33,012 bases of DNA, from IMG/VR virus record IMGVR_UViG_3300025395_000005, positions 1 through 33,012 of that record. One strand, 5' to 3'. Positions 1 to 16,995 of the stretch are shown here, one piece after another. The notes beneath the pieces were generated by a model. That model ran no database searches, had not been told where the DNA came from, and saw only the letters and a program-made list of their open reading frames with translations. Made by a program: the position numbers and the translations under genes. The stretch comes from a virus. Every line of letters begins with the position of its first letter. Within the stretch, counting starts at the first letter, position 1.

Positions 1-127
1 AAAATCACGACACCAGATCCACCGGAACCTCCTGTATTCCCTCCGTTTCCTCCTCCACCTCCTCCAGTATTAGCTGTTCCTGATATTCCAACAGCAGGAA
101 AAGTGCTAGCACCTGCACCACCTCCAC
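1..127. repeat. Terminal direct repeat, left copy (circular contig overlap)
   Basis: Bases 1-127 are identical, base for base, to 32886-33012. The repeat lies inside the polyglycine gene, whose reading frame continues seamlessly across the join. An exact 127-base overlap is what a de Bruijn assembler with k=127 leaves on a circular molecule, so I read this as a closed circle of 32,885 bp and not a biological terminal repeat. A true terminal redundancy of that length cannot be excluded from the sequence alone. Confidence 0.95.
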
Positions 128-11716: not shown

Positions 11717-11740
11717 GGCAATTAGAGCCCCTTTTTTTTT
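11716..11740 (+). terminator. Terminator of the ribbon-helix-helix gene
   Basis: A short GGGC-7-GCCC stem is followed by C and nine T. It begins at the stop codon of the plus-strand gene. The T run also encodes the Lys-rich end of the convergent minus gene, so the two genes share it. Confidence 0.55.
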
Positions 11741-11982
11741 AATTCCTCAACCGCTTTCCTGTGGCTTTCTTTCCTGCTGTTTCCAGTGGGTTTATTCCCT
11801 TTTCTGCTCTCGCCGAAAAATTGTTCCAGATCGGATTCTCCGATTCTGATCCTTCCATCGCCGCCGATTCGCCTTCCCAACCTTCCTTTGGTGCAAAGCT
11901 GGTAAACATGTTGGGGAGTAACAGCTAACAGCCTGGCTACTTCCACGACCTCATAAAGCCGCTCGTTTTTAAATTTGATCAT
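11722..11982 (-). CDS. xis: Excisionase-like winged-helix DNA-binding protein, 86 aa
   Basis: The start is ATG 11982, preceded by GGAG at nine bases; the frame extends to 12075 but the extension overlaps an upstream terminator region. Residues 8-55 (LYEVVEVARLLAVTPQHVYQ, LCTKGRLGRRIGG, IRIGESDLEQFF) are the MerR-like helix-turn-helix plus wing typical of excisionase-family proteins. The C-terminus is very basic. Such proteins bind and bend attP DNA so that integrase excises instead of integrating, and may also repress. It lies next to the integrase and attP cluster. A plain transcription regulator is the main alternative. Confidence 0.72.
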   Translation of the reverse strand: MIKFKNERLYEVVEVARLLAVTPQHVYQLCTKGRLGRRIGGDGRIRIGESDLEQFFGESRKGNKPTGNSRKESHRKAVEELKKKGL

Positions 11983-11988
11983 TTGTTT

Positions 11989-12016
11989 ACTCCAGTTTCG
12001 ATTAGGTAACTGGAGT
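11989..12016 (-). promoter_or_regulatory. Inverted repeat at the excisionase-like gene leader
   Basis: ACTCCAGTT and AACTGGAGT are perfect 9-bp arms separated by 10 bases, immediately upstream of ATG 11982. The downstream arm contains the GGAG ribosome site. As DNA it could be an autoregulatory operator; as RNA the hairpin would hide the ribosome site. Confidence 0.5.
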
Positions 12017-12072
12017 TTAAAAAAGTGAAAGGGAAGAGATCGCCGGGAGGATGATTGGAAAATGGAGAGGGA

Positions 12073-12100
12073 CAAAAAAGCCGGAATCAGGTTCCGGCTT
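12073..12100 (-). terminator. Terminator of the integrase / 138-aa gene unit
   Basis: AAGCCGGAA-5-TTCCGGCTT (12078-12100) forms a 9-bp GC-rich stem, and on the minus strand it is followed directly by a run of U, then GUCCC. It starts nine bases past the stop codon at 12109. Confidence 0.8.
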
Positions 12101-12613: not shown

Positions 12614-13798
12614 TTACCCAAGCTGCTGTTGGGTTTCCCGAGCAAGGTCCGACAGCTCGGCATAAATGGCGGTTGTTGATTTATCAGCATGACCAGCTAC
12701 AGCCTGAGCTGCCTCTTGCCCGTCCTTCCCAAGCTGGTGGACAGCCAGCTTAATCTCAGTCAATCGTAAGTGTCGGATCTGGCGGGGAGACCATGGCTCG
12801 ATCGGATTGGAAGGGGTCCGCCTGTTGGCTTCTTTTATGGATCTGACCACAGCATGAAGGTAGCTGGACCTGTTGTAGCAGCCTCTCCCCACTCCCTTTC
12901 GGATCAAAGGGAATACCCAGTCAGATTCCTTTTTCCCTTCGAGCAACGGAGCCAAGATAGCCTGAGCCCGAGGTCCGATCCAGTAATGGGATTCAATCGG
13001 TTTATCAATGTGTTGAGTCTTGTATTCCTGCGGAGAATATTTCCAGACCGGCCCGGATCGATCTAGATCATTGATTCTCATGCAACAGATCTCATCCATC
13101 CGGCAGCCCAGCAGGGAATGGACCAGGATCAGCTCCCGGAGGCAGCCTGCCGGCAGCCAGGGCAAAGTCCTCTCGATCTGCTCCCGGCTGACTGGTGGAA
13201 TTTTTTTCCCTTCAGGAGCTGACGTCCTGGTCCTTGCCAGGCCTCGGACCTCTCGTTGGGATTGCAGAGCTGCGAGAGGGATTCCCAGATGGGTATGGCC
13301 CCAGCTCCAGATCCTCCTGACTCTGTTTACCTGTTCATTCACGTTTCCCCTGGTCCACCTTTTCAGTTGCTTCCCTGATCGATAGGTCTGTTGAAGGAAC
13401 AGCTCCCGGATCCCTCGGAGCTCGGCAGCTCCGATCAATCCTGCCAGCCGATCAGAATAGGGAGAGTCGATCAGGATCGAGATAATCTTTCTAAAACAGT
13501 ATACCTCGCTGGTAGGTATTCCTTTTTTGACATAGTAAGTTTCCGCGTGTCGAAGGAAGGCCGCCAGTAGCTCCGCTACTGTCACCTGCCCTGGCTGTTC
13601 TGGGCTGACCGTTCGATCATTCCCCAACCACTCGGCTATCTTCTGCTTATATTTATCGATGGTCTCCGGATCTTCCCGGTCCCCCAGGTAGTGATCGACC
13701 CCATTGATTCTTACCCTGCCACGGAACCTCCCATCTGGGCCCTTGTGCCAGGTAAGTTTCGGAACCCAGCCAGATCCCGGCTTCCTTCGGGGGCTCAT
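12614..13798 (-). CDS. int: Tyrosine site-specific recombinase (phage integrase)
   Basis: It has 394 residues. The N-terminus 'GRFRGRVRINGVDHYLGDRE' is an arm-binding-type domain, followed by a SAM-like core-binding domain (about 80-190) and the catalytic domain. Catalytic residues are visible: 'LLGCRMDEICCMR' (Arg I), a 'YKTQH' box with the conserved Lys, 'RQIRHLRLTEI' (box II HxxR-type), 'GHADKST' and the final Tyr in 'TAIYAELS'. It catalyses recombination between attP and the host attB. ATG 13798 has GGAG nine bases upstream. An attP core from a tRNA-Pro gene lies just upstream, which is typical. The overall sequence style, including 'VWKYSPQEYKTQH', looks planctomycete (from memory). Confidence 0.95.
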   Translation of the reverse strand: MSPRRKPGSGWVPKLTWHKGPDGRFRGRVRINGVDHYLGDREDPETIDKYKQKIAEWLGNDRTVSPEQPGQVTVAELLAAFLRHAETYYVKKGIPTSEVYCFRKIISILIDSPYSDRLAGLIGAAELRGIRELFLQQTYRSGKQLKRWTRGNVNEQVNRVRRIWSWGHTHLGIPLAALQSQREVRGLARTRTSAPEGKKIPPVSREQIERTLPWLPAGCLRELILVHSLLGCRMDEICCMRINDLDRSGPVWKYSPQEYKTQHIDKPIESHYWIGPRAQAILAPLLEGKKESDWVFPLIRKGVGRGCYNRSSYLHAVVRSIKEANRRTPSNPIEPWSPRQIRHLRLTEIKLAVHQLGKDGQEAAQAVAGHADKSTTAIYAELSDLARETQQQLG

Positions 13799-13865: not shown

Positions 13866-13919
13866 AATGGTCTTTTGTTTCCCAAAAGGGTAACTTACCC
13901 TTTTATAGGGGTCCCGGAC

Positions 13920-13953
13920 AAAAAAAAGAAACCAGAGAGGATATCTCTGGTTT
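13920..13953 (-). terminator. Bidirectional terminator upstream of integrase
   Basis: The arms AAACCAGAGA (13929-13938) and TCTCTGGTTT (13944-13953) form a 10-bp stem with a 5-base loop. On the minus strand it is followed by C and eight U. It would stop late or attP-crossing transcripts before integrase. Confidence 0.75.
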
Positions 13954-13971: not shown

Positions 13972-14015
13972 TCGGAGCGAGAGGATTTGAACCTACGAAC
14001 TCTTGGTCCCGAACC
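13972..14015 (-). other. attP core: 3' part of a tRNA-Pro(CGG) gene
   Basis: Read on the minus strand, the 44 bases begin with the anticodon loop TTCGGGA (anticodon CGG, position 37 G), then the 3' anticodon stem CCAAG, a 5-base variable loop, the T arm with GGTTCAAATCC and the acceptor strand ending CGCTCCGA. The 5' side of the anticodon stem is not preserved beyond GG, so the tRNA identity starts there, and no complete tRNA is present. One T-stem pair (50-64) is T-C, a mismatch. Integration here would rebuild the 3' end of the host tRNA gene. Confidence 0.8.
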
Positions 14016-14224
14016 GTATCTGCAAATTCGTCAGGCAGTCTATAACCCTATATATATCAATACCTTACGTTATTTGATTATAAACGACATGTTAAAGTAT
14101 TTTAAACCTAAGTCCAATGAAATCGAAGTAAATCGACCTTAAAAGGGTAAAAGGGTAATTTTAAAAAAAGATTTTCTTAAAAGACTATTGACGTTGGCAA
14201 CCGTCAGAGATTCCTTGACAGTTG

Positions 14225-14266
14225 AAAAAATGAACTTGTAAGAAATCCTTACAAGTTCATTTTTTT
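14225..14266 (-). terminator. Strong bidirectional terminator at the end of the late operon
   Basis: AAAAAATGAACTTGTAAG (14225-14242) and its exact complement form an 18-bp stem around AAATC, with U runs on both strands. It begins at the stop codon of the last late gene (14268), so it ends the very long leftward late transcript. Confidence 0.88.
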
Positions 14267-15270: not shown

Positions 15271-16110
15271 TTAAACAAGACTTGGAACCACCACACCAGG
15301 AGCAACAGCGGAATCAGGGATCGCCCTCGATCCCAACAAAATTGACATGCCTTTATAGCCGTAGTCATCACCCCAGCTATTCAGGAATCTGACTCCCCAC
15401 TGACCATCTTTTTCAACTGGATCGAGGAACAGAACACTGTGCCCCCACCAGGAAAGATCAGCAACGACAGGAATCCGACAGAATAACAGAGTCATGACTT
15501 GATCAAATGTCAGTTTCTGTTTATACTGTGGGATATCGAGATCCCACCAGCCAAAAGTAGTTTTATGTTTGGCCGCATTCTCCCAGGTTAAGGGATTATC
15601 GTTGGCCCGATTCATTGACTGCATGGGCCAAAACTGGCTCGAAGGTACTCCTCTGGTAGAGATGAATTCCAGCGATTCAGCTCCCCAGCCTCCCTCATCG
15701 CGGAAATTCTTTTCCATGCAAGCAACAGCGTAGGCACTCAATGGAACATAAGGTTCACCATTGACTGCCCTGACCATCATGACAGCAGCCGTAGAACTGT
15801 GGGCCCAGCAATAGCCTTTCCCGTTTTGGTCGAGGCTGGGAATTATCTGGCCATTGTTGCCACACATCCTGATATCGGACAGCCTGGAGCGATTGGCTTC
15901 CATGGCTCGGATGCGATCTTTCCATTCTGATCTTGGAATCAGTTTCAGTTCGGGAAGAGCTTTCATCGAGGAAGAATATCCAACCGGATGAGTCGAGAAA
16001 TCCCGAGGCTTGCACCCTTTCGATTTAAGCTCGCCATCGATCACAGTATCTATATGTTCTGCAAAATTATCATCAGTGATGAAAATTTCGCCAGGGTAAA
16101 AATTATTCAT
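15271..16110 (-). CDS. Papain-like (C1A) cysteine peptidase, lysin candidate
   Basis: It has 279 residues from ATG 16110 (GGAGG just upstream). The papain catalytic set is complete: oxyanion Gln95 and nucleophile Cys101 in 'DQNGKGYCWAHSS', His224 in 'WWGHSVLFLD', and Asn244 in 'FLNSWGDDYGYKG', with the expected spacing of about 120 and 20 residues. There is no signal peptide; residues 1-90 may act as a short propeptide-like part. C1A enzymes cut peptide bonds in proteins, not peptidoglycan glycan strands. It stands directly after two tiny membrane proteins in the late cassette, where an endolysin is expected, and no muralytic enzyme is recognisable in the genome. A role in lysis or in processing envelope or virion proteins is inferred. 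Confidence 0.85.
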   Translation of the reverse strand: MNNFYPGEIFITDDNFAEHIDTVIDGELKSKGCKPRDFSTHPVGYSSSMKALPELKLIPRSEWKDRIRAMEANRSRLSDIRMCGNNGQIIPSLDQNGKGYCWAHSSTAAVMMVRAVNGEPYVPLSAYAVACMEKNFRDEGGWGAESLEFISTRGVPSSQFWPMQSMNRANDNPLTWENAAKHKTTFGWWDLDIPQYKQKLTFDQVMTLLFCRIPVVADLSWWGHSVLFLDPVEKDGQWGVRFLNSWGDDYGYKGMSILLGSRAIPDSAVAPGVVVPSLV

Positions 16111-16213
16111 TCCACCTCCCATTTATTATTTCTGCGAAAACAGCAATTAACCAAAAACAAATTAAGGAAAAGGCTGTTACATACCAGTCTGGTGTATGCA
16201 GTGTTTCAATCAT
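16103..16213 (-). CDS. Small membrane protein, 36 aa
   Basis: ATG 16213 lies within the end of the 30-aa gene, and its stop overlaps the peptidase start region. It reads MIETLHTPDWYVTAFSLICF and continues WLIAVFAEIINGRWNE: a single hydrophobic helix of about 19 residues with short polar ends. Tight overlap with both neighbours indicates co-translation. A holin or antiholin-like role is suggested only by position and topology. Confidence 0.55.
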   Translation of the reverse strand: MIETLHTPDWYVTAFSLICFWLIAVFAEIINGRWNE

Positions 16214-16299: not shown

Positions 16300-16995
16300 T
16301 CATGCCCCGTATTTCTGGAGCAGTTTCAAGGCTTCCTCTGCTGTCGCTGGTAAAGGCCCGGAAAAGCCCGTTTTTCCGTCGCTGATAATGATCCAGGGCA
16401 ATTGAGATCTAGGCAATTTCAGGGCATCCTGGAAGGCCTTGGAATCATTGCTGGCATCGATCCCAGCGTCCCATATTCTCCAATCTGGAAGGCCAGAGGG
16501 TCCCTTAGCCGCCTTGGTATTCAGGTAAGTCCTGATATCAGCAGAGAACAGGATATCCTGCTGAGCTGTGGGAAGCTGTGACAGATTTTTAGTGTCGTAA
16601 AGGATCAGAGCTCTGAAGCCCTCCCCTGCTATGGGAGCAGGAGTTGGAGCAGGTCCGGGAGGGACAGGGCCCGGAGGAGTCGGCCCACAACCAACTACCA
16701 GAGTCGTGATCGCTGGATCTGTTGGGATATTGTTTTTGCTGGAATAGCACATGATCCGATAGGATCCAGGCTGCTTACAGATTGCAATAGCTGTCCTGGT
16801 GTCTCTCAAGTGCTGATCTGGAATCAGCTTGATTCCCTGATCGAGAGGGAACCATTTTACAGCAGCATTAATTGACTTAGCCTGAATAACGATTGGTTCT
16901 CCCGGGTCTCCCGAAATCTGCTTGGGGAGATCAATATCAAGAACTGGCGATCCCGCTCCCAGTGCAGCCAATATCAGTTTAAACAGATTTTCCAT
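16300..16995 (-). CDS. Two-domain protein with Pro-rich hinge and possible thioredoxin-like C-terminus, 231 aa
   Basis: The N-terminal part (about 25-100: 'GEPIVIQAKSINAAVKWFPL', 'PGSYRIMCYSSK') looks like an immunoglobulin-type beta sandwich. A proline hinge follows (PTPPGPVPPGPAPTPAP). The C-terminal part ('RALILYDTKNLSQL', 'DWRIWDAGID', 'LPWIIISDGKTGFSGPLP', 'EEALKLLQKYG') has the beta-alpha-beta pattern and cis-Pro-like 'LPWIIISD' of thioredoxin-like folds, but no CxxC redox motif. The start overlaps the holin-like gene stop as TAATG. Role unknown; it may be an envelope-interacting late protein. Confidence 0.55.
   Translation of the reverse strand: MENLFKLILAALGAGSPVLDIDLPKQISGDPGEPIVIQAKSINAAVKWFPLDQGIKLIPDQHLRDTRTAIAICKQPGSYRIMCYSSKNNIPTDPAITTLVVGCGPTPPGPVPPGPAPTPAPIAGEGFRALILYDTKNLSQLPTAQQDILFSADIRTYLNTKAAKGPSGLPDWRIWDAGIDASNDSKAFQDALKLPRSQLPWIIISDGKTGFSGPLPATAEEALKLLQKYGA

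Follow-up and report, generated by a model that had tools for sequence, protein, structure and literature searches.

What is half of a tRNA gene doing upstream of an integrase gene in an uncultivated phage, and what does it tell about where this phage integrates? The question arises from IMG/VR record IMGVR_UViG_3300025395_000005, whose 33,012 bases were analysed in full and are called the window here. Because 127 bp are identical at both ends, the phage genome is circular or was circularly assembled, with a length of about 32,885 bp, and one contig (L005) spans the joint of its ends. The window encodes a portal, a capsid and a terminase, together with a tyrosine integrase and an excisionase-like protein. 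With high confidence, we read it as the genome of a temperate, tailed phage with its attP beside the integrase gene, the attP core being 13972-14015, and with integration into a tRNA-Pro(CGG) gene through a crossover in the anticodon loop. Contigs L004 and L005 also drew our attention to an internal repeat in a 517-aa ORF (722-2275), where 1154-1267 and 1331-1444 (114 bp, 177 bp apart) are about 80% identical.

The core is read on the minus strand:

13972..14015, minus strand: probable attP core, tRNA-Pro(CGG) positions 30-73 (reverse-complement reading and genome matches)
14013-14007, minus strand: anticodon loop TTCGGGA
14011-14009, minus strand: anticodon CGG
13995..13999, minus strand: departures from known tRNA-Pro(CGG), T46 at 13999 and T50 at 13995 (genome-record comparison)
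13991-13985, minus strand: T-loop
13979-13973, minus strand: acceptor 3' strand

From 14015 to 13972 the minus strand reads GGTTCGGGACCAAGAGTTCGTAGGTTCAAATCCTCTCGCTCCGA, with tRNA position 30 at 14015 and the discriminator A73 at 13972. The tRNA 5' half is absent upstream of the core, where CAGATAC stands instead, and ARAGORN called zero tRNA genes in the whole window. Rfam likewise gave nothing at gathering score in the whole window, and only sub-threshold chance matches in the attP region. A pattern search of genomes of 84,980 species, tolerant of variation at positions 46, 50 and 69, yielded 45 records. In 40 of these, 41 of the 44 core bases equal the 3' half of a tRNA-Pro(CGG) gene, and in five more 42 do. 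A tRNA-Pro-like 5' half precedes the 3' half in all 45 records, and 2 or 3 of the 44 positions are unlike the window. Such agreement in 45 records indicates that the likeness of the core to tRNA-Pro(CGG) is not due to chance. Blastn of the core against the collected viral loci gave an E value of 6.7e-12. The first-pass annotation had described a 44-bp minus-strand part of tRNA-Pro(CGG), from the anticodon loop to the discriminator base and without the 5' half, a description that the sequence, ARAGORN and the genome matches all confirm.

Two genes next to the core are relevant for integration:

12614..13798, minus strand: tyrosine integrase, 394 aa (PF00589, E 3.3e-6; phrog_1, E 5.7e-16; alignment)
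11722..12075, minus strand: likely excisionase or small HTH protein (phrog_66, E 2.7e-6; TIGR01764, E 1.5e-4, below the model's cut-off; start codon uncertain)

The integrase length is an upper bound, counted from the first ATG of the frame. Its residues R233, K260, R342, H370 and Y379 are invariant across 15 aligned sequences, and the first H of HxxR is variable in its clade. The tRNA fragment and the integrase gene lie on the same strand, the fragment upstream, with 173 bp between them. The integrase found no match among annotated phages, and it shares no more than 36-38% identity with the nearest integrases. On the far side of attP, the window holds a bidirectional, terminator-like hairpin (14225-14265), a perfect 18-bp inverted repeat with a 5-bp loop and with A and T runs on its flanks. 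Further on, 15271-16122 encodes a protein with a papain-like protease domain (PF00112).

Integrated relatives of the integrase are found in planctomycetes. Homologues at E <= 1e-15 were present in 136 of 248 genomes from the class of a Gemmataceae MAG (G008). None were found in the phyla of a Syntrophomonadaceae MAG (0/119 genomes) and of a Chitinispirillales MAG (0/120); neither search had its own positive control, though the query was the one that had matched in the planctomycete set. Among the 30 best loci, 24 carry a whole tRNA gene upstream of the integrase gene and on the same strand, as called by ARAGORN. The target isotypes are widely varied among the integrase loci, and tRNA-Pro(CGG) occupies this position in three of them: L079, which holds the best-scoring homologue, L088 and L096. 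The 59-kb element of L079 (genome G418) resembles the window in its homologous integrase (36%), its target tRNA-Pro(CGG) and the strand order of tRNA and integrase. Locus L088 also encodes an int-alpA RNA near its integrase gene (RF02996; 966-1034, minus strand; 37.8 bits, above the gathering score), an RNA that did not reach the gathering score in the window.

If these elements had been inserted at the tRNA, a second copy of its 3' part should lie at their far end. We searched the DNA beyond the integrase gene of 15 elements for such copies, and nine of them had 10 displaced tRNA 3' copies of 42-45 nt, 10.6-59 kb away. No attR copy was found within the stretch searched in the other six, where some contigs end early. 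All 10 displaced copies match the whole tRNA through to the gene end, from a point 0 or 2 bases ahead of the anticodon loop; the window core starts 2 bases ahead of it. An identity boundary at this place is characteristic of strand exchange within the anticodon loop. The L079-type Planctomycetia elements share with the window this boundary, as well as an integrase-side palindrome at a similar distance. In genomes G419 and G560 the two tRNA 3' copies differ by one base, so the donated 3' half need not equal that of the host. In another genome (G383, loci L112-L114), tRNA 3' copies lie at two distances from tRNA-Pro(CGG), 13.3 kb and 43.6 kb, which suggests tandem integrative elements at one tRNA-Pro site.

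The displaced copies also bear on two other explanations. Strand exchange could take place at the T-loop or at the T-stem/acceptor junction, subsites that are used by other integrases (PMC4383910), and an unbroken block, AGGTTCAAATCCTCTCGC, is common to the window and the host tRNAs. However, a crossover there would not need homology from the anticodon loop, which is where the core homology begins and where all 10 attR copies of the relatives start. We rejected it on this identity boundary, and consider it very unlikely. Alternatively, the phage might have acquired a tRNA gene for use in translation, of which the fragment would be a truncated form with no relation to integration; tRNA-Pro genes are present in some phages. 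Yet there is no 5' half within the window, and the fragment end coincides exactly with the ends of the attR copies. The negative ARAGORN result and the attR copies of the relatives effectively refute this explanation, which is by far the least probable of those considered.

Three structures were found around the core:

13884..13904, no strand assigned: putative integrase-side arm-type site pair, palindrome AAAAGGGTAAgTTACCCTTTT (repeat analysis; centre some 77 bp beyond the end of the core)
14141..14158, plus strand: putative distal arm-type site pair, two AAAAGGGTAA in tandem (14141-14150 and 14149-14158)
13921..13953, minus strand: intrinsic-terminator-like hairpin, AAACCAGAGA/TCTCTGGTTT followed by a U-run (from sequence; putative function)

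The distal tandem pair lies about 135-143 bp from the core start. The decamer AAAAGGGTAA has four copies genome-wide, all of them in attP, in a 280-bp stretch around the core. With it, just five decamers of the phage genome reach four or more copies within 300 bp, and the remaining four are repeats of the CCACCT type, close to the left end of the genome. In 10 attPs, the window included, sites common to the two arms had a mean length of 9.5 bp within an element versus 6.8 bp between elements. An integrase-side palindrome whose arms measure 7 bp or more was found in 20 of 28 sequences, compared with 2.4% of shuffled ones, and a GGTA..TACC palindrome core in 13 sequences, compared with 0.7% of shuffles. 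In the window, 77 bp separate the core from the centre of this palindrome; in most relatives the centre is 83-88 bp beyond the tRNA. These repeat and palindrome statistics were designed after seeing the sequences and are descriptive, not a test. With a layout as in the relatives, the AAAAGGGTAA repeats look like arm-type sites, to which the integrase may bind. The hairpin stands just past the tRNA 3' end and before the integrase gene, and would be expected to end the transcription of the tRNA in a lysogen. Integration into tRNA-Pro(CGG), which had been predicted together with an exact handle on the host, is thus strongly supported at the level of the gene by three independent kinds of evidence, namely the integrase relatives, their displaced 3' halves and the arm-like repeats, and for the window phage itself it is predicted from sequence and by analogy with these homologous elements. 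The host handle fared worse, as described below.

The core carries two unusual bases. It has G46T and G50T, and a T at position 46 or 50 occurs in none of the 45 matched records. T50 stands opposite C64 (13981), a U50.C64 mismatch in the T-stem. At position 69 the core has a T, and most matched tRNA genes have a C. T46 and T50 are also found in contig L002, which comes from the same phage (99.8% over 12.2 kb) but bears another IMG/VR metagenome identifier, which makes an error of a single assembly unlikely. When known 5' halves, for example from planctomycetes, were joined to the window core, ARAGORN called the hybrids as tRNA-Pro(cgg), and the drawn structure of the hybrid tRNA has one T-stem mismatch. 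As T50 breaks a T-stem pair, the repair of the tRNA may be imperfect, and T46 and T50 raise the question whether lysogeny impairs tRNA-Pro(CGG). As tRNA-Pro(UGG) is usually able to read CCG codons as well, a cell might tolerate a weakened tRNA-Pro(CGG).

Two bases that are unlike every matched tRNA, and no lysogen seen in the 84,980-species set, would also fit an attP that has decayed, or a tRNA remnant captured passively, out of use in a phage that integrates elsewhere or never. Against such decay, an unaltered run of 16 core bases surrounds the anticodon loop, the catalytic residues of the integrase are kept, the arm sites are intact on both sides, and the integrase gene and attP have the same layout as in the integrated relatives. 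Decay therefore has only a slim chance of being the explanation, and we keep to a functional attP core in the tRNA-Pro(CGG) 3' half.

Between the tRNA and the integrase gene, the Planctomycetia relatives differ from the window. They carry there a conserved three-stem element, GCCGA-stem-loop-ACC-stem-loop-GTG-CGGC, seen in L079-L108, L070, L071 and L073 (for example at 1376-1428 of L107 and 1133-1185 of L105, both on the plus strand). A covariance model of the element (R1), built from 20 loci, also matched integrase loci outside its building set (L086, L069, L089, L071 and L080). All 14 base pairs show changes on both sides, and the covariation score was 0.447, whereas shuffles gave 0.165 and slid versions no more than 0.123. 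These figures lean towards the element, as the alignment was fitted to the structure and three of the stems were proposed from the same sequences. The model had matches in 24 of 59 genomes searched. Twenty matches were taken with their flanks, and an integrase homologue was immediately downstream in 15 and a tRNA immediately upstream in 15. No Rfam family was found for the element at E 0.5 in 16 planctomycete loci. It is apparently undescribed so far, is a candidate for a role as RNA or as DNA, and, lacking an Rfam family, may deserve a separate study. In the window, model R1 had no match up to E 1, and the terminator-like hairpin stands in this place. One could speculate, though we find it rather doubtful, that planctomycete tRNA-targeting integrases share a standard module (tRNA 3' half, the undescribed three-stem element, palindromic site, integrase gene), of which the window would be a variant, with a terminator replacing the element and with T46 and U50.C64 weakening the tRNA-Pro(CGG) of the lysogen.

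Can the core name the host? The first-pass annotation had proposed it as a sequence handle, and by its own check a candidate host should carry these 44 bp unchanged at the 3' end of a tRNA-Pro(CGG) gene. The exact 44-mer was found in none of the genomes of the 84,980-species set, and its only other viral contig is L002, from the same phage. With up to three mismatches allowed, 5 of 392 genomes of the planctomycete phylum matched, all at exactly three, and a GCTCCGA acceptor end was found in 0 of 294 planctomycete genomes. With these results, the host genus could not be named, and the host species is absent from the genome sets searched. Neither a lysogen nor an empty attB of the window phage was found in the 84,980-species set or in the 392 and 294 planctomycete genomes. 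The nearest tRNA-Pro genes are 2-3 mismatches from the core and are spread over many phyla, with near-identical 3' halves in Atribacterota, Acidobacteriota, Planctomycetota, Bacillota, Fibrobacterota and others. A tRNA 3' half common to so many phyla is no host label, and the proposed handle is weak and unsupported. Homology of the integrase instead suggests a planctomycete as the probable host. The terminase points weakly in the same direction, reaching 49% identity in Planctomycetia prophages versus 46.5% in annotated phages. As a host clue it was rejected, because its relatives are spread over many phage hosts.

A looser pattern search of viral contigs retrieved further tRNA-Pro 3' halves. 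Contigs L014/L017 (IMGVR 3300013132_000126 and 3300021091_000454) and L015 have the 3' half only, directly upstream of a tyrosine integrase gene and on the same strand. The tRNA-Pro(CGG) 3' halves lie at 2911-2954 of L014, 3671-3716 of L015 and 2046-2089 of L016, the copy of L016 including part of the D-arm, with the nearest integrase gene on the opposite strand. L014/L017 are like the window in having this 3' half upstream of a related integrase (L014, 23% over 345 aa), but their core differs at 5 of 44 positions and their remaining DNA is unrelated. The L015 integrase has no BLASTP similarity to that of the window, which suggests that tRNA-Pro(CGG) became the target of different integrases by convergence. 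Judging from these contigs, several phages have come to use one and the same tRNA-Pro target. The window also encodes a proline-rich protein (16300-16995), a homologue of which adjoins the L014 integrase (35% over 93 aa). This suggests a phage module that the two may have in common.

In the mechanism that we propose, the tyrosine integrase would exchange strands inside TTCGGGA, at cut positions placed there from the identity boundaries, and so recombine attP with a tRNA-Pro(CGG) gene of the chromosome. The integrase would be held by its arm-binding domain, presumably at the AAAAGGGTAA copies that flank the core. The host would give the tRNA 5' half and the phage positions 30-73, which would restore a full-length tRNA-Pro gene at the integrase end (attL), and the host's own 3' half would be displaced to the other end (attR). 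The terminator just past the core may separate the integrase gene from tRNA transcription.

These results fix the probable integration gene of an uncultivated phage and tie its integrase to planctomycetes, whose mobile elements appear little mapped; our literature search on planctomycete integrative elements gave no matching paper. With the uniform integration layout of the relatives as a guide, the limits of mobile elements in planctomycete genomes could be mapped.

Integration into tDNA with a crossover in the anticodon loop (subsite A, with a 3' tDNA fragment) is common in the Islander database (PMC4383910). Like such elements, the window has an attP with the 3' part of a tRNA, from the anticodon loop to the gene end, and an adjacent integrase gene, and its relatives have the Islander-type layout, in which one end holds the complete tRNA and the opposite end the fragment. 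Unlike such elements, the window carries two substitutions in the donated 3' half, and no lysogen of its phage was seen in the genomes searched. The arrangement is already well known, and the window phage is a further case of it.
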